Shown one piece after another: positions 5,228-24,484 of a stretch of DNA of 64,000 nt (its first letter is position 1; every line of letters starts with the position of its first letter). The notes under the pieces are model-generated. The model saw only the letters and a list, made by a program, of their open reading frames with translations, searched no databases and was not told where the DNA came from. The stretch covers positions 62,001 to 126,000 of the forward strand of contig NZ_VOBQ01000002.1 of assembly GCF_007833165.1 (NCBI RefSeq), read 5' to 3'. The stretch is from Caenimonas sedimenti (GTDB lineage: Bacteria > Pseudomonadota > Gammaproteobacteria > Burkholderiales > Burkholderiaceae_C). Made by a program: the position numbers and the translations under genes.

Positions 5228-7372
5228 TCAGGCCTCCGGTTGCTGCGTCAGCAGCGCCATGCAGTGCGAAGGCAGTTCGAGGTGGGCCTGCGGCGCATAG
5301 CCGGCGGCGCCTTTTTCGTCGAAGCAGCCTTCGCTGGTCAGCACGCGCAGCTTCCAGTCCCCGGTGTGGCCGGGAACGTCGGGCAGCGTGAACGTCGCTG
5401 CTTCGCTGGTGGCGTTGAACACCAGCAGGACGGAACTGCTGCCCGGCGCGCCCGCGAAACGCGCATCGAGCACGATGGCCACGCACCGCACCGCGGGGTT
5501 GGTCCATTCCTCCTCGGTCATCGGCAGGCCCCAAACGCTGTACCAGCCGGCGTCGCGCCGCCCGTCGGCGTCGGGCTCGCCGTTCAGCCAGGCGCTTCCG
5601 CGCAACACGGCCAATTCGCGGCGCAGCACGGCGAGGGACTGCGTGAAGGCGATCAGCGGGTCGCCGCGGCGTTCCTCACTCCAGTCGAACCAGCTGATCG
5701 CGTTGTCCTGGCAATAGGCGTTGTTGTTGCCGCCCTGCGTGCGGCTCATCTCGTCGCCGCCGAGCAGCAGCGGCACGCCGCGCGAGGCGAACAGGGTGGT
5801 GAGGAAGTTCCGCTTCTGCCGTTCCCGCAGCGCGAGCACCGCTTCGTCGTCGGTCTCGCCCTCGGCGCCGCAGTTCCAGCTGCGGTTGTGGCTTTCGCCG
5901 TCCCGGTTCTCTTCGGCGTTGGCGTCGTTGTGCTTCTCGTTGTAGCTCACCAGGTCGTGCAGCGTGAAGCCGTCATGCACGGTGATGATGTTGACGCTCG
6001 CCTGCGGCCCGCGGCCGGACTGCTCGTAGATGTCGGCCGAGCCGCACAGGGCCGCCGCGAAATCGGGCAGGCTGCCTTCTGTGCCGCGCCAGTAGTCGCG
6101 CACGCGGTCGCGGTACTGCCCGTTCCATTCGAACCAGCCGGTCGGGAAACCGCCGACCTGGTAGCCGTAGTCGCCGAGGTCCCAGGGCTCCGCGATCAGC
6201 TTGACGCGGCGCAGGACGGGGTCCTGCGCCACCGCGGACAGGAAGGGGCTGCGATGCTCGAATGCACCCTGGCCACTGCGCGCGATGGCCGGCGCCAGGT
6301 CGAAGCGGAAGCCGTCCACGTGCATCTCCTCGACCCAGTAACGCAGGCTGTCCATGACCAGCCGCAGCACCGCCGGATGGCTCGTGTTCACGGTGTTGCC
6401 GGTGCCGGTGAAATCCATGTAGTGCCGCTGGTCCTCGGTCAGGCGGTAGTAGCTGCGGTTGTCGATGCCCTTGAAGGAAAGCGTCGGCCCCAGGTGGTTC
6501 CCTTCGCAGGTGTGGTTGTAGACCACGTCGAGGATCACCTCCAGCCCGGCTGCATGCAACGCACGGACCATTCGCTTGAATTCATTGGGATCCCGGCCGC
6601 TCAGGTAGCGCGGCTCCGGTGCGAAGAAGCCGATCGTGTTGTAGCCCCAGTAGTTGCCGAGCCCGAGCTCGACCAGCCGCCGCTCGTCGTTGAAGGCATG
6701 CACCGGCAGCAGCTCGACGGCTGTCACGCCGAGCTTCTTCAGGTGGGCGATGGCCGGTTCGCTCGCCAGCCCGGCGAAGGTGCCACGCAGCGCCTCCGGC
6801 ACGTCCGGCATCTGCCGGGTGAAGCCGCGCACGTGCACTTCATAGAAGACGCTGTCCGCCATCGGGGTTTGCGGCGCGCGATCATCGCCCCAGTCGAACG
6901 TGGAATCGACGACGACGCACTTCGCCGCACGGGTGCCGTTGTCGGCCGGGTCGATCTGCAGGTCGCGCCTGTCGTGCCCCAGCTTGTAGGCGTATTGCCA
7001 GGCCGCGCCGCGCAGCGGCCGGTCCAGGGCCCGCGCGTAGGGATCGAGCAGCAGCTTGTGCGGGTTGCAGCGCCAGCCCTGCTGCGGGTCGTAAGGTCCA
7101 TGCACGCGCAGCCCATACAGCGCGCCGGGCTGCAGCCCGGGCAGGAAACCGTGCCACACGTCATCGGTGCGTTCGCGCAGTGCGATGCGCCGCAGCTCGC
7201 GTGTGCCGCCCGTGTCGTAGAGGCAGATCTCGACCCGCTGGACACCGCAGGCATAGACGGCGAAATTGACGCCGCCGTCCCGCACGGTCGCGCCCAGTGG
7301 CCAGGGGCGGCCCGGCTGGAGCTGTTGCGTGTCGCGGCGGACAGGGGGCTTGGCGACGGCTTGCGCCGTCAT
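5228..7372 (-). CDS. glgX: Glycogen debranching enzyme GlgX
   Basis: A 714-residue isoamylase-type GH13 protein that hydrolyses alpha-1,6 branches of phosphorylase- or amylase-trimmed glycogen and releases linear maltooligosaccharides, the feedstock for the TreY/TreZ pair downstream. An N-terminal CBM48 (about 20-150) precedes the barrel, with [11 protein letters not shown] near 282, [14 protein letters not shown] near 352 (Asp358), [11 protein letters not shown] near 393 (Glu395) and [18 protein letters not shown] near 470. The reading frame stays open well upstream, but the start is ATG 7372, which overlaps the glgC stop (ATGA). The protein begins just ahead of the conserved [17 protein letters not shown] segment, as expected for the family. 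Confidence 0.94.
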
Positions 7373-8661
7373 GCAAGCACCTCCATCCGCGGTTGCCCGA
7401 CGGTGCCCGGCTCCGGCGGCGCGAGATACGGCGAGTTGCCGCTGGCGCGCCGCGGGAAGTGGCCCGCTGGCACGACCACGATGCCCGAGGGCGTGACCTG
7501 GAAGCGACTGGCGTCCTGCTCCGCGTCGAAACCGATGCGCTCGCCAGGCGGGATGTCGTTGTCCTGGTCGATGATGCAGCGGCGCACCTGGGCGCCGCGG
7601 CCGATGCGCGAGCGTTCCATGATGATGCAGTGCTCCAGCTTCGCGCCGGGCTCCACCAGCACCGAGCGGCGCAGCATGGCGTGGTCCAGCGTGGCGCCGT
7701 CGACGATGCTGCCGGAGCCCACGATGGAGCGGTTGATCACCCCGTTCTCGATCTGCGCCGATTCGGCCTGGTCCGGGCTGGCGTAGATGGGCCAGTGGCG
7801 ATTGGTCATGCGGAATTTCGGCATCGCCCCCAGCGTGTCGAAGTGCGCCTGGAAGTACGAGTCGATGGTGCCAACGTCGCGCCAGTAGTACGGCTCCTCG
7901 TAGGGCTCGGTGCCCGGGATCACGTTGGTCGCGAAGTCGTAGGCCACCAGCTTGTGGCTCGTCACCATCGACGGCAGGATGTGCTTGCCGAAGTCGCTGT
8001 CGCCAGACTCGTGCATCTTGTGCAGCTGCTCCAGCAGGACGTCGGCATTGAAGATGTAGTTGCCCATCGAGGCCAGCGCATGGGTGCTGCTGCCCGGCAT
8101 CGGCTTCGCGTCCTTCGGCTTCTCGCGGAACTGGGTGATGCGATGGTTCTCGTCGATCTCCACGATGCCGAACTGGTCGCATTCGTGCAGCGGCACGGGC
8201 AGGGTCGCCACGCTGGCCTGGGCGCCGGTCTTCACGTGGAACTCGATCATCTGCCGGACGTCCATGCGGTAGATGTGGTCGGCGCCGAACACCGCCACGA
8301 TGTCCGGCTGGATGCTCTCGATCAGGTGGATGTTCTGGAACACGGCGTCGGCGGTGCCCTGGAACCACTCGGGCCCGCGGCGCATCTGCGGCGGCACGAC
8401 GGTGATGAAGTGCTGGGGGATGAAGCGCGCCATGGTCCATGACTGCCGCACGTGCTCGATCAGCGACTGCGACTTGTACTGCACCAGCAGGTAGATCGAA
8501 TAGATCTCCGAGTTGACGAGGTTCGACAGCACGAAGTCGACGATGCGGTGCTTGCCGTTGAAGGGCACGGCGGGCTTGCAGCGTTCAGCGGTGAGCGGAT
8601 GCAGGCGGGAGCCTTCTCCACCGGCCATGACGAAGGCGAGGACGTTTCTATTGGCGGGCAT
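7369..8661 (-). CDS. glgC: Glucose-1-phosphate adenylyltransferase
   Basis: A 430-residue nucleotidyltransferase making ADP-glucose from ATP and glucose-1-phosphate, the committed step of bacterial glycogen synthesis. The N-terminal pyrophosphorylase signature [13 protein letters not shown] (about residue 12), [15 protein letters not shown] and GTADAVFQN are all present. The C-terminal part has the repeating hydrophobic pattern of a left-handed beta-helix (for example [18 protein letters not shown]). The length matches E. coli GlgC (431). The start ATG 8661 has AGGGAGA about seven bases upstream and overlaps the 3' end of glgB by 14 bases; its own stop overlaps the glgX start. No glgA (glycogen synthase) is in the window, so ADP-glucose must be used by an enzyme encoded elsewhere. 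Confidence 0.95.
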
Positions 8662-10597
8662 GAACTTCTCCCTGGATGGATGTTGGTGTGGGTTCTGATG
8701 GGGTGAACATCACCGTGCCCAGGGGCGGCACGGTGACGGTGGCGCTGGCGGGCCAGCCCGCCAGGGCGTGGGGTGTGGCCTGGATTCGGCCGAGGTTGCC
8801 GGTGCCGCTGCCGCCGTAGAAGGTGGCATCGCTGTTGAGGAACTCGTGCCAGTCGCCCGCGTGCGGCAGCGCGACGCGCACGCGGTGCGGCTGCGGCGTC
8901 ATGTTGCAGAAGGCCGCAACCGGTGCGTCCCCTTCTGCGCCGCGGCGCAGGATGCCCAGCACCGTGCCGTCGTTCGGCTCGGCCGGCAGCCAGGCGAAGC
9001 CGTCCGCATGGAAGTCCCGGCGATGCAGGGCCGGCATGGTGCGGTACGCCCCATTCAGGTCGGCGAGCCAGCGCGCCAGCCCGCCATGCCCGGCGCGGGC
9101 CCACAGGTGCCAGTCGAGCGTGCGCTCGTGGTGCCATTCCTCGGCTTGGCCGAACTCGCCGCCCATGAAGAGCAGCTTCTTGCCGGGGTGCGCCCACATG
9201 TAGCCGTACAGGTTGCGCAGGCCGGCGAAGCGCTGCCAGTCGTCGCCGGGCTGGCGCTGCAGCAGGCTGCCCTTGCCATAGACCACCTCGTCGTGCGAGA
9301 GCGGCAGGACGAAGTTCTCGTTGAAGGCGTAGACGGCGGAGAACCGGATGTCGTCGGCGTGCCACTTGCGATAGAAGTGCGGCCGCGCCATGTAGCGCAG
9401 CGTGTCGTTCATCCAGCCCATGTTCCACTTCATGCCGAACCCGAGCCCCCCGTGGTGCACCGGACGCGAGACGGCCGGCCAGGCGGTGGACTCCTCGGCG
9501 ATCACGTGGACGTCCGGGAAGTGCGCGTACACCGTGGTGTTCAGGTCCTGCAGGAAGCGCACCGCGTCGTGGTTCTGGTTGCCGCCATGCGCGTTGGGGA
9601 TCCACTGGCCGGGCTCCCGCGCGAAATCGAGATACAGCATCGAGGCGACCGCGTCCACGCGCAGGCCGTCGAAGTGGTACTTCTCCAGCCAGAAGAGGGC
9701 GTTGCTGATCAGGAAGTCGCGGACTTCGTAGCGGCCGTAGTTGAAGATCAGGCTGTTCCACTGCGGGTGGAAACCCAGGCGTGGATCCTCATGCTCGTAG
9801 AGCGCCGTGCCGTCGAAGCGAGCGAGCGCGTGCGGGTCGGCGGGGAAGTGCGAAGCGACCCAGTCGAGGATGACGCCGATGCCGCGCTGGTGCAGCGTGT
9901 CGACCAGCACCATCAGGTCCTGCGGCGTGCCGTAGCGGGCCGTCGGCGCGAAATAGCCGGTGACCTGGTAACCCCACGATCCGTAGAACGGATGCTCGGC
10001 GACCGGCAGCAACTCGACGTGCGTGAAGCCCATGTTCTCGCAGTGCGCGGCCAGGCGCAGGGCGAGATCCCGGTAGTTCAGGAAGCGGCCATCCTCCTCG
10101 CGCTGCCACGACCCGAGGTGCACCTCGTAGATGCTGATCGGGCGGTCGTGCCCCTGGCGCTGCTGCCGCGTGGCCATCCAGGCCTGGTCGCCCCACTCGT
10201 GGCCGAGGTCCCAGATTTGCGAGGCGGTGCCGGGTGGATGCTCGCAACGGAAGGCATACGGGTCGGCCTTGTCGATCCACTGGCCTTGCGCCGTCTGGAT
10301 GCGGTACTTGTAGCACTGGCCGGGCCGCGCGCCCGCGATGAACGTGCTCCAGCGACCGCTGCCGTCGTCGAGCCGGTGCATGGGTTCGCAGTGCCATTGG
10401 TTGAATGCGCCGATGACGCCGACAAAGCGCGCGTTGGGTGCCCACACGGTGAAGGTGGTGCCCTGCGGCGAGGCGTGCGCGCCCATCACTTCGAACTGGC
10501 GATGGTGGTGGCTGGTTTGGTGCACGGCGGGCGCGGCGGCCCGATGCTCCGCGGCGGGCGACGGTCGTTGCGCTTCCGGCGGAAGTATGTTTTTCAT
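8648..10597 (-). CDS. glgB: 1,4-alpha-glucan branching enzyme
   Basis: First gene of the operon: a 649-residue GH13 branching enzyme that cuts alpha-1,4 glucan and rejoins it by alpha-1,6 bonds. A CBM48 (about 35-125) is followed by the catalytic barrel with [25 protein letters not shown] (nucleophile near residue 315), IAEESTAWP (acid/base Glu near 368) and [11 protein letters not shown]. It lacks the extra N-terminal module of the 728-residue E. coli enzyme, so it is the short GlgB type. The start was set at ATG 10597 ([10 protein letters not shown]). An upstream in-frame ATG at 10654 would add 19 basic residues and has no support. The stop TAG lies inside the start region of glgC. Confidence 0.93.
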
Positions 10598-11086: not shown

Positions 11087-11236
11087 ATGAGCCTCGGTTG
11101 CTTTCTTTTGTCCGTGCCCCGTTCCTGCGTCAAGCGTCCCGCGGTTCCGCCTTCCACCAAGGCGCAAGCCGTGCGTACTGCCGCACCCAGGGATGGCAAA
11201 CCGGTTGCCCGCGCAGCCCCCCACCCGACGAAATGA
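11087..11236 (+). CDS. Possible small ORF (49 aa) coupled to the methyltransferase gene
   Basis: ATG 11087 opens a 49-codon frame ending at TGA 11234-11236, whose ATGA overlaps the start of the methyltransferase gene. This is the same arrangement used between the next two genes. The product would be basic and rich in Ala, Pro and Lys, with a short hydrophobic N-terminus (SLGCFLLSV) and a tail ending HPTK. No Shine-Dalgarno is obvious and I recognise no family. It could be a leader peptide, a precursor peptide for the modifying enzymes that follow, or a chance ORF. Low confidence. Confidence 0.22.
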   Translation: MSLGCFLLSVPRSCVKRPAVPPSTKAQAVRTAAPRDGKPVARAAPHPTK

Positions 11237-12186
11237 GCAGCGCGCTGGTCGCGAGCCTGGTCGACACGGGCCGGTGGCTGCGGCAGCAGGGCTACCGCTT
11301 CGTCACACCGACGCCCGCGACCCATGCGCGCGTGTTGCGCCGCGACCCCACGGCGGCAGCGAGGAATCTGCGGGATGCCTTCGGCTGGAGCCGTCCCTTC
11401 CGTCCGGGACTGGTGCCGAGCCGCCTGCTCGAGGCCTTGCGCAGCGCGCAGCTGGTGGTGCCGCTGCCCGACGGCTTGCTGGCGAGCCGCGCGCGCTTCT
11501 CGACGCTGGGTGACCTGCTGCTGGCCCATTCGGCGTACCCGACCACGCAGCCGGACGCCGTCTTCTTCGGGCCCGACACGTACCGCTTCGCGGCATTGGT
11601 CGAGTCTGAACTCCAGCGGCTGGCCCTGGTGCAAGGCGCCCGCATCCTCGACGTCGGCTGCGGATCGGGCGCGGGCGGCCTCCTGGTCGCCTGGTCCTCG
11701 CGCGCCACGGGCCCGCAAGTCATGCTCACCGACATCAACGCCTCCGCGCTGGAATTCGCCAAGGCCAACGCGACCCTCGCCGCGGTCGAAGGCGTGTCGT
11801 TCGCGCAGGGCGATCTCTACGCTTGCGTGGCCGGCGAGTTCGACCTGATCCTCGCCAATCCGCCCTACCTCAACGACGGCGCGGCGCGCACCTACCGCCA
11901 TGGTGGCGGCGCCTGGGGCGGCGCCTTGTCCGAGCGGATTGTGCACGAGGGCCTGCCCCGGCTGCGGCCGGGCGGAAGGCTGGTGCTCTACACCGGCGCC
12001 GCCATCGTCGCGGGGGAAGACCCGCTGCGTGACGCCCTGAAGCCGGCACTGGAGGACCGCGGCTGGCCGTGGTCGTGGCGTGAACTCGACCCGGACGTGT
12101 TCGGCGAAGAACTCGAAGAGCCCGCCTACGCCGGCGCGGAACGCATCGCCGCCGTGGCGCTGGTGGTGCAGAGGCCGGCGCGATGA
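11233..12186 (+). CDS. Class I SAM-dependent methyltransferase, PrmC/HemK-like
   Basis: A 317-residue protein with a Rossmann methyltransferase core: motif I ILDVGCGSGAGG at about 138-149, an acidic post-I segment (LTDINASAL near 165), and NPPYL at 209-213. The NPPY motif is typical of enzymes methylating planar nitrogen (glutamine amide, adenine), as in PrmC. The N-terminal ~120 residues are a separate helical domain, as in PrmC, but the sequence is not close enough to call it release-factor methylation. The start ATG 11233 is chosen because the protein then begins directly with the helical domain; the frame is open further upstream with unlikely composition. It overlaps the ATP-grasp gene by four bases (ATGA), so the two probably act in one pathway on an unknown substrate. 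Confidence 0.8.
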   Translation: MSSALVASLVDTGRWLRQQGYRFVTPTPATHARVLRRDPTAAARNLRDAFGWSRPFRPGLVPSRLLEALRSAQLVVPLPDGLLASRARFSTLGDLLLAHSAYPTTQPDAVFFGPDTYRFAALVESELQRLALVQGARILDVGCGSGAGGLLVAWSSRATGPQVMLTDINASALEFAKANATLAAVEGVSFAQGDLYACVAGEFDLILANPPYLNDGAARTYRHGGGAWGGALSERIVHEGLPRLRPGGRLVLYTGAAIVAGEDPLRDALKPALEDRGWPWSWRELDPDVFGEELEEPAYAGAERIAAVALVVQRPAR

Positions 12187-13490
12187 GGTTCCTGGGCATC
12201 GGCGAGACCAACGACCTCGCGTCGATGTACCACGGCCTCGCGAAGCGCGGCCACGAGGTCCGCGTGTTCGTGGAGGACCCCGCCTGCGCGGACGTGCATG
12301 CCGGCCTGCTGGACTTCACCGCGGACTGGGAGGCGGACCTGGGCTGGGTGCGGGCGGCCGGCGCCGACGGCGTCGTCCTGTTCGAGTCCGCGATCAAGGG
12401 CGAGGTGCAGGACGCGCTGCGCCGCGACGGCTTCCAGGTGATCGGCGGCAGTGCCTTCGGCGACCGCCTGGAGGCGGATCGCGACTTCGGCCAGCAGGTG
12501 CTGCGCGAGGGCGGCCTGAAGACCGCGCGCACGCATCGTTTCACCGGGTACGAGGCCGCCCAGGCTTTCCTGCGCGACCGGCCGAGGCGCTACGTGCTGA
12601 AGTTCAACGGTGCAGACCATCCGCGCACGCGAAACTTCATCGGCACGATGGACGATGGCTGCGACATGCTGGCGCTGCTTTCACTGTATCGCTCGCAGGC
12701 TCCCGCTGGCGAGCCGACCGACTTCATCCTGATGGAACATCTGGAGGGAGTGGAAGTCGGCGTGGGGGCGTACTTCAACGGCGAGGCCTTCCTGGATGCG
12801 AAGTGCATCGACTTCGAGCACAAGCGCTTCTTCCCGGGCGAACTCGGGGAGTTGACGGGAGAAATGGGGACCATCGTCGGCTATCGCGGGTCGGAGCGCC
12901 TCTTCCAGGCCGCGCTCGCGCCGGTGGCTCCGCTGCTGCGTGAGAGCGGGCATGTGGGCTACCTCAACGTCAACCTGATCGCCAACGAAGATGGCTTGTG
13001 GCCGCTGGAGTTCACCAGCCGCTTCGGCTACCCCGGCTTCGCCATCTGCGAGGCGCTGCACCTCGAACCCTGGGAAGACATCCTGCGCCGCATGCTGCGC
13101 CGTGACAGCCTGGCGCTGCGCACACGCGCCGGCTGGGCGGCGGGCGTCGTTCTCACGGTGCCGCCTTTTCCGTATCGCCATGGCTACGAGGAACTGTCCA
13201 AGGGCATGCCGATCTGCCTGCGACCCGAACTCGATGCGGGCGATCGCGAGGCCCTGCACTTCGCCGAGATCGCCAGCGTGAACGGCCAGCTGGTGACCAG
13301 CGGCTCCTGCGGCTACGTCGGCGTGGCCACGGGTCTCGGCGCCGAGGTGGCGCAGGCGAATGCGGAGGCCTTGCGCGTCGCGGCGGGCGTGGTCGTGCCG
13401 AACCTGCGCTACCGGCGCGACATCGGCGAACGGGTGAGCAGCAATGACCTGCGCATGCTGGAGGATCTGGGCTGGCTCGACCATGCGTAG
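12183..13490 (+). CDS. PurD-like ATP-grasp ligase
   Basis: A 435-residue protein resembling phosphoribosylamine-glycine ligase in its N-terminal Rossmann-like domain (GIGETNDLASMYHGLAKRGH) and ATP-grasp core (RRYVLKF near 137, ILMEHLEGVEVGVGAYF near 180, NVNLIANEDGLWPLEFTSRFGYPG near 270). ATP-grasp enzymes join a carboxylate to an amine or similar nucleophile through an acyl-phosphate. Its pairing with a methyltransferase and a diiron oxidase, not with purine genes, argues that it is a paralogue with another substrate. It overlaps the upstream gene by four bases; 95 bases separate it from the diiron-enzyme gene. Confidence 0.75.
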   Translation: MRFLGIGETNDLASMYHGLAKRGHEVRVFVEDPACADVHAGLLDFTADWEADLGWVRAAGADGVVLFESAIKGEVQDALRRDGFQVIGGSAFGDRLEADRDFGQQVLREGGLKTARTHRFTGYEAAQAFLRDRPRRYVLKFNGADHPRTRNFIGTMDDGCDMLALLSLYRSQAPAGEPTDFILMEHLEGVEVGVGAYFNGEAFLDAKCIDFEHKRFFPGELGELTGEMGTIVGYRGSERLFQAALAPVAPLLRESGHVGYLNVNLIANEDGLWPLEFTSRFGYPGFAICEALHLEPWEDILRRMLRRDSLALRTRAGWAAGVVLTVPPFPYRHGYEELSKGMPICLRPELDAGDREALHFAEIASVNGQLVTSGSCGYVGVATGLGAEVAQANAEALRVAAGVVVPNLRYRRDIGERVSSNDLRMLEDLGWLDHA

Positions 13491-13585
13491 GAAGCAACCC
13501 ACGGCATCGGACGCGGCTGCCTGATACGGCCCGAAGCCGAGCGGCTTCACACTGTCTTCATCACTCCGAGAAGCAGTAGCAGCCG

Positions 13586-15028
13586 ATGTACATCGCATCC
13601 CACGAATGGCAGCGCCCCGCGAGCCCTCCGCGCGCCGGCCATCTCAATCCCCCGCCCGGTGCGCTGTGCGAACCGCTCTACCGGCGCCTGGCCGCCGGCA
13701 CGCCCGATGCCGCGACGCGTGCCGAGGCCGCGCAATTCCTGCGTCGGGAGATCGCGCTGGCTGGGACCGCGCCGTGCACACTGCCCGAATCGCCGGAGAA
13801 CCTCGTGGGGTGGATGGAAGCGAATGCGCAGACCGTCCACGCCAAGTACGCGCTTTATCTCGAAGGCCGCCGCGCTGGCGGGCCCCGGCACTTCTTCCGC
13901 AATCGCGCGCATGCGCTGCATGTGTTGCGCGCGATCTCGCCGACCAAGGTGGTGGATGGCGCCTGGCTCTACGGCCTGATCCGGCACGCGAACAACCCGA
14001 GGTTCGCACCGCTGGTGCAGACCTACGTCGAGGAGCTCGGCGAAGGCGCGATCGACAAGAACCATGTGGTGCTCTATCGCGGCCTGCTGGCCCGGTACGG
14101 CCTGGACCCGGTCGACGGCCTGCCCGACACGCACTATCGCCAGGGCCTGATCCAGCTGGCACTGGGCTGGAACGCCGAGGAATTCCTGCCCGAGGTCATC
14201 GGCTTCAACCTGGGCTACGAGCAGCTGCCGCTGCACCTGCTCATCACGGCCTACGAGTTGAACGAGCTGGGCATCGACCCTTATTACTTCCAGCTGCACG
14301 TGACCGTGGACAACGGCAGCACCGGCCACGCCCGGCGCGCCTGCGACGCCGTGCTGGAGGCCCTGCCGCGCCTGGACGATGGCGGCGTCTTCTGGCAGCG
14401 TGTGCGAGTGGGTGCGCGGCTGGCCGATGCGGGACTGGGCACTGTCGACATCATCGATTCGTTCGAGCCTGAGCAGGAAGTGCTGCGCATCCTGGCGGCC
14501 AAGTCGTCCGCGGGCGCCGGTGCCCACTCCGACTATTGCCGCGTCGCGGGCCGCAGCGTCAATGACTGGTTGTCGTCACCGGAGAACGTGGCAGGCTTCC
14601 TGCGCGAGCTGGAAGCGCAAGGCTGGATCCGCCGCAACGAGCCGGCGAGTTGCAGCCGGTTCTGGAAGTTGCTGCAGGGCGAGCGGGCCGAGATGTTCGG
14701 CGTTTTCTCCGCCTACGAACTGCAGGTGATCCACGACTGGATTCGGGGCGAGGCCAGTGCTGACGGCGCGCCTTTCACCGAAGAGCCGCCCTCGGCCGGG
14801 CGGCGACGCGCGACCTTTCGCGCGTTGCAGCGCAATGCGCACGCCGTGGCCGCGCCGGACCTCGGTTCGTTGCTGGATCCCGACCTGGATCTGTTCAAGG
14901 CGCAGCTGGCGCGCGCGGAGGCCGGGCCCCGGGAGCAACTCCTCGTCGACGCCATGTCGCCGGCCCAACACTGGACGCCGGTGGGGTTGTATGCCACTGG
15001 GGAGTTCTGGAAGTCCAGAACGCAGTAA
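13586..15028 (+). CDS. Haem-oxygenase-like diiron redox enzyme
   Basis: A 480-residue protein whose residues ~60-260 follow the pattern of the iron-containing redox enzyme family (HDO, haem-oxygenase-like metal oxidases/oxygenases). Candidate metal ligands are EELGEGAIDKNH (Glu149/150, Glu153, His160) and LHVTVDNGSTGH (His238, Asp242, His248). Characterised members (UndA, BesC, SznF) oxidise fatty acids, amino acids or N-substituted arginine using O2. The C-terminal ~200 residues form an extra domain of unknown role with a second basic/aromatic block around 335-385. There is no signal peptide, so it is cytoplasmic. It follows the methyltransferase and ATP-grasp genes on the same strand; substrate unknown. 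Confidence 0.75.
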   Translation: MYIASHEWQRPASPPRAGHLNPPPGALCEPLYRRLAAGTPDAATRAEAAQFLRREIALAGTAPCTLPESPENLVGWMEANAQTVHAKYALYLEGRRAGGPRHFFRNRAHALHVLRAISPTKVVDGAWLYGLIRHANNPRFAPLVQTYVEELGEGAIDKNHVVLYRGLLARYGLDPVDGLPDTHYRQGLIQLALGWNAEEFLPEVIGFNLGYEQLPLHLLITAYELNELGIDPYYFQLHVTVDNGSTGHARRACDAVLEALPRLDDGGVFWQRVRVGARLADAGLGTVDIIDSFEPEQEVLRILAAKSSAGAGAHSDYCRVAGRSVNDWLSSPENVAGFLRELEAQGWIRRNEPASCSRFWKLLQGERAEMFGVFSAYELQVIHDWIRGEASADGAPFTEEPPSAGRRRATFRALQRNAHAVAAPDLGSLLDPDLDLFKAQLARAEAGPREQLLVDAMSPAQHWTPVGLYATGEFWKSRTQ

Positions 15029-15221
15029 CGCCGTTGCCGGGGCGAGGGGTCGACTCGCGCCGCCGGTCGTGAACTGCTCCACGGACATTTCTTGTGACCG
15101 CGTTCGGCGTTACACGCCGTTGCGAGCAGGTCGCCGATTTCGCAAATTCCCTCACGGAGGATTCCGGCCGCGCGCTGCATATTCCGCCTGCGCCGACGTG
15201 GCGCGTGACGGGGAGAAGACA

Positions 15222-15533
15222 ATGGCAAAGAGCAACAACCTCATCCTGGCTCGCCTGGCACTGTCGCTGGCGATCACCGTCGCCGCGCCCGCGTGGGCCC
15301 AGCAGTCCGGCGGGGCGGTCAAGCTCGCGCAGGCGGGTCCCGATCTGTCCTGCCGCAAGGAAGTGAAGGAATACCTCGACACCATGCGCCTGCTGCGCGA
15401 CACGGGCGGCGCCCAGGTCGGTGACATGGTGGCGAACGGGCTCGTCGCCGAGTCCGAGGTCGAGAGGACCGCGCAGGGCCAGGGCCACTGCGCCGCCGCC
15501 CAGTTGATCCGCGACAAGCGCGCTCGCCGCTGA
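15222..15533 (+). CDS. Small secreted protein of unknown function
   Basis: A 103-residue protein with a clear signal peptide (hydrophobic core LILARLALSLAITVAAP, cleavage likely after AWA near residue 26). The mature part is short and charged, with two cysteines (DLSCRKE and GHCAAAQ) that could form a disulfide. GGGAGA lies about five bases before ATG 15222, supporting this start. No family recognised. About 190 bases separate it from the diiron-enzyme gene, so it may have its own promoter. Confidence 0.65.
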   Translation: MAKSNNLILARLALSLAITVAAPAWAQQSGGAVKLAQAGPDLSCRKEVKEYLDTMRLLRDTGGAQVGDMVANGLVAESEVERTAQGQGHCAAAQLIRDKRARR

Positions 15534-16673: not shown

Positions 16674-16826
16674 TGAAAGTATTCGCGCCGTCGATTCATG
16701 CGATGGACACAAACCATTTTTCAAGAGGCTGACGGATTCCTATCCTCGCGGCACTTCTGAAAGACGGGTGCGAGTGATGAAGGTGTTGCGGGTGACGGAT
16801 GCGGTGTCAGCGTGCCGGTGGGCGCG

Positions 16827-17948
16827 ATGGATCCGTTCGTGAAAGCGAGTCTGCATGTCGGCGTCGTTGGCGGCGGCGTAGCCGGGCTGGCGTGCGCGCT
16901 CGCGGCTGCGCGCGGCGGCGCCCGTGTGCAGGTCTTCGAAGAGCGGCCGGAGCACATGCAGGTCGACACCCATGTGGAGGTCGTGCCGAGCATGCTGCGT
17001 GACCTCGTTCGCATTGGTGTGGGCGATGCGTGCGTGCGCGCAGGCTTTCCCTTTCGCCGGACCAACGTGCTCGACCAGGCCGGGCGCAAGCTGTTCGCCA
17101 TCGAAGCGGAGGCTCTGGCGGGCCCCCGGCTTCCCGCCACGCTGGGAATCACGCGCAGTTCCTTCCACGAGGGCTTGCGCGAGGCCGCCGTCGCCGCGGG
17201 GTGCCAGATGAATCGCGGCTTGCGTGTGACGGACGTCGGCGCCGACGGGAGCATCGAGTTCGCCCGAAGCGCGCCCGTTCGGGCGGATCTGGTTGTGCTG
17301 GCGTGCGGCAGCGAGTCGCCACTCCGTGCGCGCGTCTTCGGTGCGAGTCCCCCGGTCCGGCCGGGCCCCGCGTGGTCGTACTTCCTGGCGTCACGCCCGG
17401 TCGGCCTGGACGAGGCGGTGCTCGCCAGCGCCCGCGATGGCCGCAAGGCGCATGTCGTGCCCGTGAGCTCCAGCCAGGTCGGCGTCCGCATGGCGCCGGC
17501 GCCGCATCAGCTGCCTCACGCCTCGGCACCCGCGGCGTGGCCGGGCGAATTGCTCGCGGGGTTTGCCGGTGTCCTGGGTGCACTCGGCGATGGCGCGCGC
17601 AACGAAACGCGCGCCGTCCTGCGCGACGCCCATGCCGATGTGGCGGCTGCCGACTGGCATCGCGGGGCACTCCTCGCCGTTGGCGACTGCGCGCACCGCT
17701 TGCCCCCGCATTTCGGCCAGTCCGCCGCGCAGGCCATCGAAGACGCGGTCGTGCTGGGCGAATTGCTGGAGCGCGGTGGCAGTGTGGACGAATTGTCAGC
17801 CGCATTCGTGCGCCGCCGGCGCGATCGGGTGGCCGAAGTGGCCGCGCTCACCACGCTGGCCGCGCGCTGGGACACGGAGCCCGAGCCTGCCACCGACTTG
17901 CCTGCCATCACGCGCGCGCTTGCGCGTCTCGTTCACCAACCTGCCTGA
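16827..17948 (+). CDS. FAD-dependent monooxygenase (class A flavin hydroxylase-like)
   Basis: A 373-residue protein with the N-terminal FAD-binding motif VGVVGGGVAGL (about 11-21) and the second FAD motif LLAVGDCAHRLPPHFGQSAAQAIEDAV near 285, as in PHBH-type aromatic hydroxylases. The DG motif region is present but degenerate. It would use NAD(P)H and O2 to hydroxylate an aromatic or related ring. ATG 16827 is preferred; a GTG at 16812 would add five residues. It is the first gene of the block divergent from LysR and ends 32 bases before the DUF1302 gene. Confidence 0.82.
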   Translation: MDPFVKASLHVGVVGGGVAGLACALAAARGGARVQVFEERPEHMQVDTHVEVVPSMLRDLVRIGVGDACVRAGFPFRRTNVLDQAGRKLFAIEAEALAGPRLPATLGITRSSFHEGLREAAVAAGCQMNRGLRVTDVGADGSIEFARSAPVRADLVVLACGSESPLRARVFGASPPVRPGPAWSYFLASRPVGLDEAVLASARDGRKAHVVPVSSSQVGVRMAPAPHQLPHASAPAAWPGELLAGFAGVLGALGDGARNETRAVLRDAHADVAAADWHRGALLAVGDCAHRLPPHFGQSAAQAIEDAVVLGELLERGGSVDELSAAFVRRRRDRVAEVAALTTLAARWDTEPEPATDLPAITRALARLVHQPA

Positions 17949-17980
17949 ACCAAGAACCAACCCGGAGCCGAGAGGAGACC

Positions 17981-19651
17981 ATGTCCAGCAACACCCGACA
18001 ACTTCGCCGCGTAGCGCGGTACCACCTGATCGCCCTGGCTGCCCTCGCGGCTTGCGGGGGCGCCGGCGCATTCGACTTCGAGACCGGCAACCCCGATGTC
18101 CGGATCCGCTGGGACAACACCGTCAAGTACAGCAACGCCTTTCGCCTGAAGGATCGCGCCCCGGGGCTCTCGAGCACGAGATTCGGCCCCACCGGCGTTG
18201 TCGGCCCCAACAACATCAACCAGGACGACGGCAACAACAACTTCAGCAAAGGACTGGTGTCGAACCGGCTCGACGTGCTGAGCGAACTCGATGTCCTCGG
18301 GCCCCGGTGGGGCGCGCGTGTCAGCGCCGCTGCCTGGTACGACACGGTCTACAACCGCTCCACGGACAACACCACGACGACCTCGAACCACACCCCTGCA
18401 AGCGAATTCGCGGGCGAGACACGCGAGCTCATGGGTCGAAATGCCGAGATCCTCGATGCGTTCGTGTTCACCAAGTTCGACCTGGGCGAGAAGCCGGCAA
18501 CGGTCCGGCTCGGCCGCCACACCTTGCTTTGGGGCGAGAGCCTGTTCTTCGGCGCGAATGGCATCGCGGGGGGCCAGGCGCCGCTCGACCTGGTGAAGCT
18601 GCTCTCCGTGCCGAACTCGCAGTTCAAGGAGATCGCGCGGCCGACCGGCAAGGTGTCCGCCCAGGTGCAACTCTCCAGCGACGTCTCCGTCGCGGGGTAT
18701 GTCGGCTATGAATGGGAAAAGACCCGCCTGATGCCGGTGGGTGCCTACCTGTCCGGCAGCGACACGCTCGGACCCGGCTCGGAGCGCCTCAACGCCGGCC
18801 CCACCGGCGTGTTCGCCCGCGGACTCGACCTCGAGCCCCCGGATTCCGGGCAAGGCGGCGTCCAGTTGCGCTGGCGCGTGGATGCCATTGACACCGATCT
18901 CGGCTTCTACGCCATCCGCTACCACGCGACGACGCCCAGCAACATCTACACGACCCTCAACGGCCGGCCTCCGGCATTGAGCGGCAACAACTTCCGCTGG
19001 GCGTATCACGAAGGGGTGCGCGCTTTCGGCGCGAGCTTCTCGAAGTCCGTCAACGAATGGGGCCTGGCCGGCGAAGTCTCGATCCGCAAGAATGCGCCGC
19101 TCGCGAGCAGCGGCCAGTCAGTGATCCCGGCCATTGGTGTCGGCACCACCTTCGACAACGACAAGAACCCAGGCTATGCCGTGGGCGAAACGGCACACGC
19201 GCAGTTTTCCTGGCTGGCCAGCCTGGGGCCGAGCTTCATTTCACGCGAGGCCAGTTTCCTGGGCGAGATCGCCTGGAACCGCCGCCTCAAGGTCACGAAG
19301 AACCCCGGGATGCTCAATCCGAACGCCGACCGCGATGCCACCGCGATGCGGCTGGTCTATGCCCCGACCTATCGCCAGATCGTGCCCGGCCTGGATCTCA
19401 CGCCGAGCATCGGCATGGGCTACACGTGGGGGAAATCGTCCGCGGTCGGCCCGGGGTTCGGCGCCGACAAGGGTGGCGACATCAACATCGGACTGTCCGG
19501 CGTGTACCTCGGCCGATGGACGGCCGCACTGAACTACGTCCACTACCTCGGCACCGAGGGCCCGACGCTGGACAACGCCAACAACGCGCAATACCGCCAG
19601 GCGCTGAAGGACCGCAACTTCATCACCTTCTCCCTGCGCACCACCTTCTAG
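17981..19651 (+). CDS. DUF1302 family outer-membrane protein
   Basis: A 556-residue protein starting at ATG 17981, with GAGAGGAGA just upstream. It has a signal peptide (LIALAALAACGGAGA), then FDFETGNPDVRIRWDNTVKYS, the usual opening of DUF1302 proteins. The body alternates Gly/aromatic-rich strands, and the sequence ends SLRTTF with a terminal Phe, as for beta-barrels inserted by BAM. DUF1302 proteins are found next to DUF1329 and RND permease genes in many catabolic clusters; a role in passage of hydrophobic substrates across the outer membrane is inferred, not shown. Confidence 0.88.
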   Translation: MSSNTRQLRRVARYHLIALAALAACGGAGAFDFETGNPDVRIRWDNTVKYSNAFRLKDRAPGLSSTRFGPTGVVGPNNINQDDGNNNFSKGLVSNRLDVLSELDVLGPRWGARVSAAAWYDTVYNRSTDNTTTTSNHTPASEFAGETRELMGRNAEILDAFVFTKFDLGEKPATVRLGRHTLLWGESLFFGANGIAGGQAPLDLVKLLSVPNSQFKEIARPTGKVSAQVQLSSDVSVAGYVGYEWEKTRLMPVGAYLSGSDTLGPGSERLNAGPTGVFARGLDLEPPDSGQGGVQLRWRVDAIDTDLGFYAIRYHATTPSNIYTTLNGRPPALSGNNFRWAYHEGVRAFGASFSKSVNEWGLAGEVSIRKNAPLASSGQSVIPAIGVGTTFDNDKNPGYAVGETAHAQFSWLASLGPSFISREASFLGEIAWNRRLKVTKNPGMLNPNADRDATAMRLVYAPTYRQIVPGLDLTPSIGMGYTWGKSSAVGPGFGADKGGDINIGLSGVYLGRWTAALNYVHYLGTEGPTLDNANNAQYRQALKDRNFITFSLRTTF

Positions 19652-19672
19652 AAGCTTCCCACGGAGACCATC

Positions 19673-21028
19673 ATGGCAATTCCATCCTGCACCCGCATTG
19701 CGCTGGCCGCGGCGCTCGCCGCCGGCCTCGCCGCGACACACGCGGCCGTCACGCCCGAAGAGGCGGCCAAGCTGAAGACCGAACTCACGCCCCTGGGCGG
19801 CGAACGCGCCGGCAACAAGGACGGCACCATCCCGGCCTGGAACGGCGGCTACACGACGCCCCTGCCCGGCTTCAAGAGCGGCGGGCGGCGCGGCGACCCG
19901 TTCGCCGACGAGAAGCCGCTGTACTCGGTGACGCCGGCCAACATGGCGCAGCATGCGGACAAGCTCACGGAAGGGACGCAGGCGCTGCTGAAGAAGTATC
20001 CGCAGAGCTTCCGCGTGGATGTCTACAAGACGCATCGCACGGCGGCCGCGCCGCAATGGGTGTACGACAACACGTTCAAGAACGCCACCACGGCGCGGCT
20101 CGAAGGTGAAAAGCTGGTGGGAGCCTTCGGCGGTATCCCGTTCCCCATCCCGAAGACCGCCAAGGAGATCATCTCCAACCACGAACTGCACTGGCGTGGC
20201 GAGGCCTGGCAGACCGACTTCCGCGGGTACCTCGGCACCGCGAGCGGCCAGCGCGTGCTGTCAGTCGAGGCGATCGGGGACTTCCAGATGCCGTACTACG
20301 CCCAGGGCCAGGAGGGCAAGTTCGGCGGCGACTACTGGATGATCCGGATGGTCAACTCCGGGCCGCCGGTGCGGGCCGGGGAAGCGATCGTCGGCCGGCA
20401 GAACCTGGACCAGGACAAGACCAGCACCTGGGTGTACCTCACCGGGCAGCGCCGCGTGCGCAAGCTGCCCAATTCCTGCTGCGACACGCCCACCCCCGCG
20501 AGCAGCGGCGTCGCGAGCTTCGACGAGGTCGACGTCCTGACGGGCCGCACGGACCGCCACGACTGGAAGATCGTCGGCAAGCGCGAAATGCTGATTCCCT
20601 ACAACAGCAACCGCATGCACACGCCTGCCAAGGACAGCGACCTGCTGCTGGCCAACCACCTGAATCCGGATCACGTGCGCTGGGAACTGCATCGCGTGTG
20701 GGTGCTGGAGGCCGCGCTCAAGGCCGGGCAGCGCCACCAGGCCGCGCGCTCGCGCTACTACATCGATGAGGACACCTGGGTCGCCGTGCTGGCGGACCGC
20801 TGGGACGCGAACGGCCAGCTCTGGAAGACCGTGTGGTCGCATCCGGTGGTGATGCCCGACCTGCCGGCGACGACGCCGCAGCAGCAATGGGGCTTCAACG
20901 ACCTGATCAGCGGCGCCTGGTACGCCAGTGGCGTCGTCAACGAGCGCCAGCAGCACTACAAGGTCGTGCCGCGCCGGGTGGACTCCCACTTCACGCCTGA
21001 CGCCATGGCGGGCGAGGGCGTGCGCTGA
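19673..21028 (+). CDS. DUF1329 family periplasmic/outer-membrane protein
   Basis: A 451-residue protein with a signal peptide (ending near THA, residue 24), followed by VTPEEAAKL and LTPLGGERAGN..GTIPAW, the DUF1329 hallmark. The family is thought to have a fold related to the LolA/LolB lipid carriers, which would suit carriage of a hydrophobic ligand between membranes; that link comes from general knowledge and is not demonstrated here. GGAGACC lies about six bases before ATG 19673. It is 21 bases after the DUF1302 gene and four bases before the propeller gene, so all belong to one transcript. Confidence 0.88.
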   Translation: MAIPSCTRIALAAALAAGLAATHAAVTPEEAAKLKTELTPLGGERAGNKDGTIPAWNGGYTTPLPGFKSGGRRGDPFADEKPLYSVTPANMAQHADKLTEGTQALLKKYPQSFRVDVYKTHRTAAAPQWVYDNTFKNATTARLEGEKLVGAFGGIPFPIPKTAKEIISNHELHWRGEAWQTDFRGYLGTASGQRVLSVEAIGDFQMPYYAQGQEGKFGGDYWMIRMVNSGPPVRAGEAIVGRQNLDQDKTSTWVYLTGQRRVRKLPNSCCDTPTPASSGVASFDEVDVLTGRTDRHDWKIVGKREMLIPYNSNRMHTPAKDSDLLLANHLNPDHVRWELHRVWVLEAALKAGQRHQAARSRYYIDEDTWVAVLADRWDANGQLWKTVWSHPVVMPDLPATTPQQQWGFNDLISGAWYASGVVNERQQHYKVVPRRVDSHFTPDAMAGEGVR

Positions 21029-21032
21029 TCCC

Positions 21033-22088
21033 ATGAAGCCTGGTGTTTCCCCGCGGGCGATCGCCCGGGCCTTCTGTCTCGCTCTTTCGTGGCTGGCCAC
21101 CGGCGCTCTCGCGGCGCCTGTGGGGGACGCGCTCGACCGTCCCGCCGTCATGGTGCAGCAACCCGGCCGGGCCGTGCTGCTTGCCGCCGCCTCCACCGGG
21201 ACGCGGCTGGTCGCGGTCGGAGAGCGCGGCGTGGTGGCCCTCTCCGACGACGGCGGCAAGCAGTGGCGGCAGGTACCCGTCCCGACGAGCGTCTCGCTGA
21301 CCGCAGTTCGTTTCGGCGACGGTGGGCGCGGGGTCGCCGTCGGCCACGGCGGGATCGTGCTGACTTCGCAGGACAGCGGGGCGTCGTGGCAGCGACGGCT
21401 CGATGGCCGCCAAGCGGCGACGCTCGCGGTGGACGCTGCCCGGCGATCGGGAAGCGCCATGCGCATCAAGGAGGCCGAGCGCCTCGTTTCGGAAGGGGCG
21501 GACAAGCCTTTCCTCGACGTGCTGCTGCTCGGCGAACAGAAGATCCTGGCAGTGGGTGCCTACGGGATCGCCTTCGCCAGCGAAGATGGCGGCCGCACCT
21601 GGACGCCTTGGATGGACCGGCTGCCCAACGAGAAGGGACAGCATCTCTACCTGGCGCGCAAGGCAGGAGACACGTTGCTGGTTGCAGGGGAGCAGGGGCT
21701 CATCCTGCGCTCGACCGACAACGGCGCAACGTTCCAACCGCTGGCCAGCCCCTACAAGGGGAGCTGGTTCGCCGGTGAATTGCCGCGGTCCGGCGAATTC
21801 GTGCTCGCCGGGCTGCGCGGCAACGCCTGGCGCAGCAGCGATGGCGGCTCGCGCTGGGTGCAGCTGGCCAACCCCCACCCCGCCTCGATCACCAGCACGC
21901 TCGCTGCGGGCGGCGCGTTGCTGTTCGCCAACCAGGCCGGCGTCGTGTTGCGGTTGCAAGGGGACGCACTTGTTCCCGTCAAAACGGCGGCTCCGCTACC
22001 GCCCCTGGCCGGTCTCGTCGCGGCGGGTGACGGTTTGCTAGGCGTCGGTCTGGCTGGCGTCGTACCGGTGGAAGGGCGCGCCAGGTGA
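21033..22088 (+). CDS. YCF48/BNR-like beta-propeller periplasmic protein
   Basis: A 351-residue protein with a signal peptide (AFCLALSWLATGALA) and repeated S.DGG..W blades (ALSDDGGKQWRQV, SQDSGASWQRR, SEDGGRTWTPW, STDNGATFQPL, SSDGGSRWVQL), typical of YCF48/sialidase-like propellers. Such a protein commonly sits between DUF1329 and RND genes and may scaffold the transporter. The start is ATG 21033, four bases after DUF1329; the same frame is open further upstream inside DUF1329, but that part is not coding. Its stop overlaps the RND start by GTGA. Confidence 0.85.
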   Translation: MKPGVSPRAIARAFCLALSWLATGALAAPVGDALDRPAVMVQQPGRAVLLAAASTGTRLVAVGERGVVALSDDGGKQWRQVPVPTSVSLTAVRFGDGGRGVAVGHGGIVLTSQDSGASWQRRLDGRQAATLAVDAARRSGSAMRIKEAERLVSEGADKPFLDVLLLGEQKILAVGAYGIAFASEDGGRTWTPWMDRLPNEKGQHLYLARKAGDTLLVAGEQGLILRSTDNGATFQPLASPYKGSWFAGELPRSGEFVLAGLRGNAWRSSDGGSRWVQLANPHPASITSTLAAGGALLFANQAGVVLRLQGDALVPVKTAAPLPPLAGLVAAGDGLLGVGLAGVVPVEGRAR

Positions 22089-24484
22089 ATCCCTCCGCGA
22101 CCCCGATCCCCACGCACTTCGATCCGCGATCCGGTTCATGGCTGGAGCGGCTCCTGTTCAACCATCGCCTGTTGGTGGTGGCGTTGTGCGCATTCGTCAC
22201 GCTCGTCCTGGGCTGGCAGGCTTCGCGGCTGGAGCTGCGGGCCAGCTTCGAGAAGACGATCCCGGCGGCACACCCGTACATCGCCAACTTCCTGCAGCAC
22301 CAGAACGAATTGAGCGGCCTGGGCAATGCGGTACGCATCGCCGTCGCCCGGCCCGACGGTTCGATCTACGACCCGAAGTATCTGGACACGCTGCGGCGCC
22401 TGAGCGACGAGCTGTTCCTGCTGCCCGGTGTCGATCGCGTGCGGATGAAGTCCCTGTGGACGCCGTCCACCCGCTGGATCGGCGTGACGGAAGAAGGCCT
22501 CGAGGGCGGCCCGGTCATCCCCGACGGCTTCGATGGCTCCGCGGCGAGCCTGCAGCAGTTGGCGGCCAACGTGGCGCGGTCTGGCGAGATCGGCCAGCTG
22601 GTCGCCCGCGACGCCCGTTCCTCCGTCATCTTCGTGCCGTTGCTGGCCAAGGACGCCCAGGGCCGGCCGATCGACTACGGGGACCTTTCGGGGAAGCTCG
22701 AGTCCCTGCGTGCCAAGTACGAAGCAGAGGGCGTGCGGCTGCACATCACGGGCTTCGCCAAGATCGTCGGCGACCTGATCGACGGCGTCCGCGCGGTCCT
22801 GGGCTTCTTCCTGCTGGCGGTCGCCATCGCCACCGCGATGGTCTATGGCTATACGCGGTGCGTCCGCTCCACGGCGCTGGTGGTGCTCGCGTCGCTGGTG
22901 GCCGTGGTGTGGCAACTGGGCTTGCTGCCGGCACTGGGCTTCACGCTGGACCCGTACTCGATCCTCGTGCCCTTCCTCGTCTTCGCGATCGGCATGAGCC
23001 ACGGTGCGCAGAAGATGAACGGGATCATGCAGGACATCGGCCGCGGCGCCGACAAGCTGGTGGCTGCGCGCTTCACCTTCCGCCGGCTGTTCCTGGCGGG
23101 CCTCACCGCCTTGCTGGCCGACGCCGTTGGTTTCGCCGTCCTGCTCCTGATCGACATCCAGTCCATCCGCGAACTCGCGGTCGCGGCGTCGCTGGGCGTC
23201 GGCGTGCTGATCTTCACCAACCTCATCCTGCTGCCCATCCTGCTGTCGTACACGGGCGTGAACCAACGGGCGGCGGAACGCAGCCTGCGGGAGGAGGCGC
23301 CCGGGTCCAGGCCGAACGTCCTCTGGACTTTGCTGGATCGCTTCACGACGCGGCGCTGGGCGACAACGGCGGTGATTGTTGGAAGCGCGCTGGGCGTCGC
23401 GGGTTTCGCCGTCAGCACGCAGCTCAAGATCGGCGACCTCGACCCCGGCGCGCCCGAGCTGCGTGCGGACAGCCGCTACAACCGCGACGTGGCGTTCCTC
23501 AACGCGGCCTATGGCGCGTCGAGCGACGTGCTCGCCGTGATGGTTCGCACCCCTGCCGGACAGTGCTCGCGCTACGAGACGCTGAACAAGGTCGATGCGC
23601 TGGAATGGCAGTTGCGCCAGTTGCCGGGCGTGGAGTCCACCAACTCGCTGGCCTTGCTGAACCGGCGCGTGCTCTCCGGCCTGAACGAAGGCAACCCCAA
23701 GTGGTACGAGTTCGTGCCGAACCAGGACATGTTGAACACCGCCACGGCCAGCGCGCCGCGGGGTCTCTACAACGAGGCCTGTTCGCTGCTGACGGTCTAC
23801 GTCTACCTGCGCGACCACAAGGCCGACACGCTGGCGCGCGTGGTCGCGCATGTGGAGGCGTTCGCCCGGGAAAACGACGGGCGCCATGGCCAGTTCCTGC
23901 TGGCGGCGGGCTCCGCGGGCATCGAGGCCGCCACCAACATCGTGGTCAAGGATGCCTGGCGGCAGATGCTCTTCCTGGTCTACGGCGCCGTCGTCCTCTT
24001 GTGCTTCATCACCTTCCGGTCGTGGCGCGCGGTGGTCGTCGCGGTATTGCCGCTCGTCCTGACCTCGTTCCTGGCGGAGGCGCTCATGGTCGCGCTGGGC
24101 ATGGGCGTGAAAGTCGCGACCTTGCCGGTGATCGCGCTCGGGGTGGGCATCGGGGTTGACTACGCGCTCTACATCCTGTCGGTGACGCTGGCCCGGATGC
24201 GCGAAGGCATGACACTGTCCGAATCGTACGGGCGGGCTTTGCTCTTCACGGGGAAGGTGGTGATGCTGACCGGCCTGACCCTGGCCATCGGCGTCGTGAC
24301 CTGGGTCGCCAGCCCGATCAAGTTCCAGGCCGACATGGGCCTGCTGCTGGCGTTCATGTTCCTCTGGAACATGCTGGGCGCACTCGTGTTGTTGCCGGCG
24401 CTGGCGCATTTCCTGCTGAAGCCGGCGCAGGTGGTGCGGCCTGCGGCTCCGACGTCCTCTCCCGTGCTCGTGGAGGTTGCGTGA
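22085..24484 (+). CDS. RND-superfamily (MMPL/HpnN-like) transporter permease
   Basis: A 799-residue membrane protein with one helix near 30-45, a periplasmic loop (about 50-235), a helix bundle (about 236-385), a second helix near 415-435, a second periplasmic loop and a final bundle (about 640-780). This is the two-fold RND layout at the length of the HpnN/MMPL group, shorter than the drug-efflux AcrB type (about 1050). No membrane-fusion protein or TolC-type gene accompanies it; the partners are DUF1302, DUF1329 and the propeller. GTG start 22085 overlaps the previous stop, and its own stop overlaps the next GTG. Direction of transport and ligand are unknown; a hydrophobic aromatic or lipid-like compound is likely. 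Confidence 0.88.
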   Translation: MNPSATPIPTHFDPRSGSWLERLLFNHRLLVVALCAFVTLVLGWQASRLELRASFEKTIPAAHPYIANFLQHQNELSGLGNAVRIAVARPDGSIYDPKYLDTLRRLSDELFLLPGVDRVRMKSLWTPSTRWIGVTEEGLEGGPVIPDGFDGSAASLQQLAANVARSGEIGQLVARDARSSVIFVPLLAKDAQGRPIDYGDLSGKLESLRAKYEAEGVRLHITGFAKIVGDLIDGVRAVLGFFLLAVAIATAMVYGYTRCVRSTALVVLASLVAVVWQLGLLPALGFTLDPYSILVPFLVFAIGMSHGAQKMNGIMQDIGRGADKLVAARFTFRRLFLAGLTALLADAVGFAVLLLIDIQSIRELAVAASLGVGVLIFTNLILLPILLSYTGVNQRAAERSLREEAPGSRPNVLWTLLDRFTTRRWATTAVIVGSALGVAGFAVSTQLKIGDLDPGAPELRADSRYNRDVAFLNAAYGASSDVLAVMVRTPAGQCSRYETLNKVDALEWQLRQLPGVESTNSLALLNRRVLSGLNEGNPKWYEFVPNQDMLNTATASAPRGLYNEACSLLTVYVYLRDHKADTLARVVAHVEAFARENDGRHGQFLLAAGSAGIEAATNIVVKDAWRQMLFLVYGAVVLLCFITFRSWRAVVVAVLPLVLTSFLAEALMVALGMGVKVATLPVIALGVGIGVDYALYILSVTLARMREGMTLSESYGRALLFTGKVVMLTGLTLAIGVVTWVASPIKFQADMGLLLAFMFLWNMLGALVLLPALAHFLLKPAQVVRPAAPTSSPVLVEVA

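Follow-up and report, generated by a model that had tools for sequence, protein, structure and literature searches.

The subject of this work is a group of three adjacent genes in a 64,000-nucleotide stretch of Caenimonas sedimenti DNA (NZ_VOBQ01000002.1, positions 62,001 to 126,000; hereafter the window), which is part of a contig (C12) from a genome of 5.9 Mb. The genes encode a methyltransferase (MT), a PurD-like ATP-grasp ligase (AG) and a haem-oxygenase-like diiron protein (HDO). Across related loci the conserved core is the pair of MT and HDO, and AG is an add-on that comes and goes. On balance, the three genes probably belong to a stress-associated small-molecule pathway with MT and HDO as its core, to which AG or a YbdK ligase has been added in some lineages. 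HDO itself resembles DtpC, a protein described in Acinetobacter baumannii.

HDO, encoded at 13586..15028 on the forward strand, is a DtpC-type protein of 480 residues, in which a bundle (approximately residues 20-300) is followed by a C-terminal part (approximately 300-480). DtpC is reported to be an HDO-type protein co-transcribed with katE, which lies 54 bases downstream; it suffices for survival of drying whether KatE is present or not, limits hydrogen peroxide in dried cells and is inactive once one of the metal-binding residues E143, H153 or H232 is changed (PMC13232832, June 2026). In an A. baumannii locus (L210), the HDO-matched open reading frame (ORF) stops 54 bases short of a catalase gene, and a start giving 469 codons yields E143, H153 and H232; by this gap and these residues the ORF was taken to be dtpC. 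The window protein is 35.5% identical to it over 427 residues (blastp, E 7e-92), and the three tested residues align with E150, H160 and H238. Judged from this alignment, the window HDO is a full-length DtpC homologue, with both the HDO and the C-terminal part. A first-pass annotation of the window had named the three genes as its strongest candidate for a new system. Since HDO is homologous to a published protein and therefore no orphan, that claim narrows to MT, the ligase partners and the chemistry, and the combination of an HDO, a ligase and an MT does fit small-molecule chemistry. The two proteins also have a stress-gene setting in common, represented by katE in the case of DtpC. In other respects their settings differ: window HDO follows MT and AG, whereas no MT or ligase adjoins DtpC in L210, and no katE lies in the window region that was read. 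The main text of PMC13232832 does not contain the word methyltransferase. DtpC-like HDO genes also occur on Acinetobacter plasmids, some of them typed as mobilizable or conjugative, and catalase and trehalose genes lie near in one of these loci (L135).

The HDO superfamily has more than 10,000 members, of which about a dozen are characterised (PMC13108848). Window HDO matches PF14518 (100.6 bits), and the diiron ligand pattern noticed in the first-pass annotation is borne out: E150, H160, E212, H238, D242 and H248 are identical in all 47 long HDOs aligned, a set that omits a copy of the window (L001) and a locus with a broken frame (L034). E150 and H160, ten residues apart, share a ligand helix (14033..14065, forward strand), and the H238-x3-D242-x5-H248 stretch (14297..14329, forward strand) was located from the alignment and the predicted model; E212 was assigned from spacing and by eye, not by superposition, and in that alignment column the long and the short HDOs are offset by one position. 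The long class, to which the window protein belongs, reads H-x3-D-x5-H, whereas six aligned short HDOs read H-x3-D-x2-H, and in the predicted model the helix breaks between D242 and H248. Twelve acidic or histidine positions were checked, and all but 157 and 245 are identical in 47/47. About 100 positions of the HDO alignment are invariant, far beyond the ligands, which suggests a specific substrate pocket. The alignment by locus (A1) comprises the window and 29 of the 34 loci described below, leaving out L011, L014, L021, L024 and L034. The closest named relatives are from Ramlibacter metagenome-assembled genomes.

In a ranking of structures, the predicted HDO fold is nearest to the HDO N-oxygenases RohS, HrmI and SznF. 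RohS and HrmI have 11-13% identity to the window protein and lack a counterpart to its C-terminal 180 residues. SznF has the same spacing of ten between the first ligands (E215/H225); compared with SznE/SznF of streptozotocin biosynthesis, the third histidine of window HDO stands three residues further on (PMC11705231), and no cupin domain was matched in window HDO, the C-terminal part of which was not searched by itself. A phmmer search of PDB sequences gave a chance match only, residues 290-480 matched no Pfam family or PDB sequence, and the C-terminal part was folded only within the full-length protein. The PADLOC anti-phage defence models matched neither AG nor HDO, and the reading as a defence system was rejected.

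The pairing of MT with HDO emerges from the distribution of the genes. A scan of genome contigs for HDO, covering close relatives and including some loci that stop at contig ends, yielded 34 loci. According to tblastn, on which these locus counts rest, all three genes occur in 10 loci (L003, L005, L007, L008, L010, L018, L023, L029, L032 and L035), AG and HDO in four (L006, L011, L019 and L025), MT and HDO in five (L002, L009, L022, L030 and the fragmentary, two-part L034), and HDO without MT or AG in 15. A whole-genome search of 14 of the genomes behind the HDO-alone loci found AG in none and MT in one (G151). The genes had initially been read as a single cluster; the neighbourhood survey does recover the full trio in ten loci, but an obligate three-gene unit is refuted by these counts. 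Among the matches listed from the open-licence PMC literature there was no description of the trio or of the MT-HDO pair, which does not show that such a description is absent from print.

Wider samples give a similar picture. Among 150 genomes of the family, HDO was found in nine, AG in two, both with HDO, and MT in six, four of them with HDO; in the two genomes with MT and no long HDO (G006 and G054), MT lies beside a short HDO. Among 299 genomes of the phylum, HDO was found in 15 (12 at E<=1e-137), MT in 13 and AG in the source genome alone. MT and HDO occur together in 10 of these, in one cluster in nine and apart in G460. As for the other three MT genomes, a short HDO overlaps MT in G459, a YqcI/YcgG gene adjoins it in G321, and no recognised partner was seen beside it in G425. 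MT is rare in the class of G459 (2 of 240 genomes), and in the Pseudomonadaceae, the family of G452, it is present in 49 of 119. Twenty of these 49 MT regions were inspected: in 19 of them MT is immediately preceded by a long HDO on its own strand, and in L172 the long HDO is absent. Furthermore, MT adjoins a short HDO in nine loci (L089, L090, L129, L131, L136, L137, L138, L140 and L209). The adjacency thus involves both HDO classes, and it is seen in either of two gene orders. In an MT tree of 53 rows, the label 'short' HDO requires four changes, the number forced by supported branches, and the label 'long' HDO nine, compared with a shuffled mean of 15.2; the bootstrap of this tree had not settled, and L140 forms a very long branch.

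AG also has relatives outside the Comamonadaceae. On a plasmid of the alphaproteobacterium Sphingomonas daechungensis (L131, 6217-9301), MT, a short HDO and an AG relative are adjacent, with interrupted or split frames. Other AG relatives lie on plasmids of Roseomonas (45.7%) and Halarchaeum (L133, 33.1%), and neither has a marker for MT or HDO in its vicinity; the haloarchaeal one is annotated just as a GARS C domain protein. In genome G157 (L011/L047), the AG match contains one in-frame TGA, which could reflect decay of the gene or a fault in the assembly.

Neighbours such as Ku/LigD, KatE and hemerythrin are in keeping with a link to stress. Twenty Pseudomonadaceae regions, from 20 of the 49 genomes with a match, were compared with 20 control windows from 10 genomes (p values uncorrected throughout). 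At least one of Ku, LigD, KatE, hemerythrin, DUF4142 or a PSK-type gene is present in 10/20 regions and 0/20 controls (p 0.00044), and YbdK in 8/20 and 0/20 (p 0.0033). Taken singly, Ku/LigD and PSK-type genes each occur in six regions and no control (p 0.02 each), and DUF4142 in two and none (p 0.49). In the 34 scan loci, for which there is no matched control, Ku or LigD is found in eight (L008, L010, L013, L015, L016, L018, L031 and L032) and KatE in one (L022). The neighbours of 327 and 875 residues that recur in Acidovorax are Ku, confirmed by Pfam, and LigD rather than iron-uptake proteins, and a siderophore reading was discarded. In addition, genes read as SpoVR, YeaH and PrkA stand ahead of HDO and MT in L081, and a plasmid of Acinetobacter johnsonii carries HDO, catalase and trehalose genes inside 15 kb. 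A possible lead in the Actinomycetota is the SigF regulon of Mycobacterium smegmatis, which is listed as including the methylase MSMEG_1771 beside the hypothetical MSMEG_1772, as well as the carboxylate-amine ligase MSMEG_5590 (PMC4694148).

In the pathway that we favour, the diiron centre of HDO would, with O2, oxidise and most likely N-oxygenate a nitrogen of an amino-acid-type substrate, and the HemK-like MT would N-methylate the substrate or the product, before or after the HDO step. In the Ramlibacter/Acidovorax group, AG would couple this unit, via an acyl phosphate, to another carboxylate or amine, giving an amide; in many Pseudomonadaceae a YbdK (GCS2) ligase beside HDO would act in place of AG. 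The product would protect cells in desiccation, oxidative stress or a non-growing state. What we observe are the genes and their families, the recurring MT-HDO pair with its changes of partner, the homology to DtpC at the tested residues and the stress-gene neighbourhoods of Pseudomonadaceae; the small-molecule product, its N-oxygenation and N-methylation, the order of the steps and the role in the organism are what we infer. The recurrent MT partner and the varying carboxylate-amine ligases (AG, YbdK and cyanophycin synthetase) favour small-molecule synthesis over simple binding of iron or peroxide.

Concerning the substrate, a few neighbourhoods contain genes linked to arginine. On a plasmid of Sphingobium yanoikuyae, cphA, an isoaspartyl peptidase gene, a cyanophycinase gene, MT and a short HDO follow in close order, and cphA and a cyanophycinase gene lie beside short HDO and MT in G459 and beside the long HDO in G460. 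On a plasmid of Legionella sainthelensi, MT is fused to the end of a longer protein of 609 residues, after which come a short HDO and LigD; the N-terminal part of this protein scores best against dimethylargininases (107.9 bits, below the cut-off of 300) and exceeds the ADI and DDAH Pfam cut-offs. In G321, MT stands between a histidine-specific methyltransferase (PF10017) and the YqcI/YcgG gene, the family of which has been described as guanidine N-hydroxylases (PMC12866846). A known MT-HDO pair, SznE/SznF, acts on arginine (PMC11705231). The predicted fold and these neighbours together suggest N-oxygenation of an arginine-type substrate, and arginine or an arginine derivative is a tentative candidate that we consider less likely than not. 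A fuller version is more speculative and, in our estimate, rather doubtful: a widespread undescribed pathway leading to an N-methylated, N-oxygenated arginine derivative that would protect dry or non-growing cells, with DtpC as its oxygenase; in certain lineages AG or YbdK would attach a further amino acid to the derivative, or cyanophycin would be its source. If true, it would mean that guanidine chemistry of the SznE/SznF type serves stress survival and not an antibiotic, and it would answer how DtpC protects. PMC13232832 leaves three mechanisms open for DtpC, namely iron sequestration, scavenging and synthesis of a protective small molecule; the MT partner and the swapping of ligases beside one and the same family of HDOs speak for the third and single out candidate enzymes. 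Should this hold, the HDO superfamily would be tied to stress survival more generally, among bacteria of soil and plants.

Several observations weigh against a small-molecule pathway, its link to stress or its proposed substrate. HDO stands without either partner in 15 of the 34 loci, and in these lineages MT may be dispensable or have a substitute, unless the idea of a small molecule is itself mistaken. Three chromosome-sized A. baumannii records with a dtpC-like HDO contain no MT at E<=1e-20, from which it follows that protection by DtpC does not itself need MT. With the HDO model, Foldseek gave no match at E<=0.001 (the best was RohS, at 0.011), and a profile search of PDB sequences returned RohS as its sole match (E 0.49). 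The stress markers had been chosen on the basis of related loci (L079, L080 and others) before being tested on new genomes, and their p values are not corrected for multiple tests; 10 of the 20 regions contain none of them, and KatE and hemerythrin, each in three regions and no control, are not significant (p 0.23 each). Glycogen/trehalose genes are not enriched (1/20 regions, 2/20 controls); seen in the window and in L006, they were dropped as a general partner on these counts. The arginine-linked neighbours come from five loci that differ in gene content, the window trio has no arginine gene next to it, and cphA was found in 0/20 Pseudomonadaceae regions and 0/20 controls.

Some of these points would also be expected if HDO alone were a protectant at the protein level, by sequestering iron or slowly removing reactive oxygen, with MT and AG as separate genes in a shared stress island. 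Protein-level protection by DtpC is among the options of PMC13232832, no MT lies near dtpC in L210 or occurs in the three A. baumannii records, and many kinds of stress genes share these regions. However, MT and HDO are adjacent in either of two orders and for both classes of HDO, which exceeds what sharing of an island would give, and the invariant positions beyond the ligands suggest a specific substrate pocket. We consider this explanation unlikely.

A small-molecule product might instead be an antibiotic, a metallophore or a signal with no tie to stress, as HDOs with ligases are known from natural-product clusters. Larger, distant HDOs (681-713 residues) occur in two distant genomes (L095 and L096; in L096 at 7054-9099, reverse strand), adjoined by a carbamoyltransferase and an ATP-grasp protein of the amino-acid-ligase type and in L096, which was searched with Pfam, also by a TauD-type oxygenase; these loci look like another natural-product cluster. 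Nevertheless, in the loci examined the trio has no constant companion among transporters, carrier proteins or regulators, and both the stress-gene neighbours and the homology to DtpC point elsewhere, making such a product quite improbable.

MT (11233..12186, forward strand) is a class I S-adenosylmethionine-dependent methyltransferase of 317 residues that matches PF05175 (Methyltransferase small domain, 58.5 bits), with a HemK/PrmC-like catalytic domain behind an N-terminal domain of approximately 130 residues. Its NPPY motif, N209-P-P-Y212 when numbered from the start at 11233 (11857..11868, forward strand), which had been spotted in the first reading of the sequence, is invariant in the alignment of 15 rows (A3; 14 loci, two of them partial, and the window). 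NPPY is common to amide-N methylases, and PrmC/HemK are the best NCBIfam relatives of MT. Consequently, MT could be a HemK/PrmC-like protein methyltransferase that modifies HDO or a translation factor, with AG modifying a protein terminus. The scores, however, are far below the family cut-offs (70.5 against 199.1 bits and 59.8 against 115.5 bits), and MT is rare, in 13 of 299 genomes, and accompanies HDO genes from two dissimilar classes, which is not the behaviour of a housekeeping methylase; we regard this alternative as less probable still. MT also matches the PADLOC mad2 model at 67.7 bits, which is read as general methyltransferase similarity.

AG (12183..13490, forward strand), a PurD-like carboxylate-amine ligase of 435 residues, has the ATP-grasp fold and domain order of PurD (GAR synthetase). 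It matches GARS_A (PF01071) with 44.3 bits and GARS_C with 29.7 bits, under the cut-off of 34.8. The first-pass annotation had called AG PurD-like, and AG is indeed not the purD of the genome: the purD equivalog model gives about 88 bits (88.1-88.6) for AG against a cut-off of 288, whereas the genome's own full purD, on contig C50, scores 554.7 bits. The stretch RFGDPE, which we take to be a PurD signature and which is visible in the PurD structures 2xcl and 2yrw, reads RFGYPG in AG and is invariant in that form in 15 rows (alignment A2; 14 loci and the window). A second PurD isozyme is therefore barely credible, despite the shared fold, given the separate full purD, the RFGYPG stretch, a match to the PurD profile that begins only at residue 75 and the clustering with MT and HDO. 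YbdK/GCS2 ligases, found beside HDO in the eight Pseudomonadaceae regions mentioned above, are ligases of the same overall reaction type as AG with an unrelated fold, and YbdK is possibly its functional replacement.

As to the layout, the first-pass annotation was right in placing the three genes on one strand with an ATGA overlap: MT and AG overlap by exactly four bases in all 11 pairs measured, window included. The gap between AG and HDO is 95 bases in the window and 6-275 in 14 other AG-HDO loci. The span originally assigned to the cluster, 11087..15533, does hold the three genes, but it is too wide on both sides. The start of MT, placed by conservation in 15 rows, is the ATG at 11233 and not 11087, and the far end takes in a small secreted ORF (15222-15533, forward strand, 103 residues) downstream of HDO that does not belong. 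This ORF matched no Pfam or NCBIfam family and has no relative by tblastn across the 34 HDO loci from other genomes, by which it was ruled out as a precursor peptide. Beyond it lies a LysR-type regulator on the reverse strand.

Upstream of MT, on the opposite strand, is a glycogen/trehalose-type operon with alpha-amylase family and 4-alpha-glucanotransferase proteins (Pfam) and with GlgX-like, GlgC-like and GlgB-like genes, names that go beyond the Pfam families being our reading; a starch-synthase-type gene lies farther along (L098). At window positions 2-3400 (reverse strand), a single long ORF fuses a 4-alpha-glucanotransferase (PF02446) with an alpha-amylase family domain. Downstream, at 16812-24484 on the forward strand, a row of genes for a FAD-binding protein, DUF1302, DUF1329 and MMPL-family proteins seems to belong to a cluster for degradation or export, which extends further downstream.

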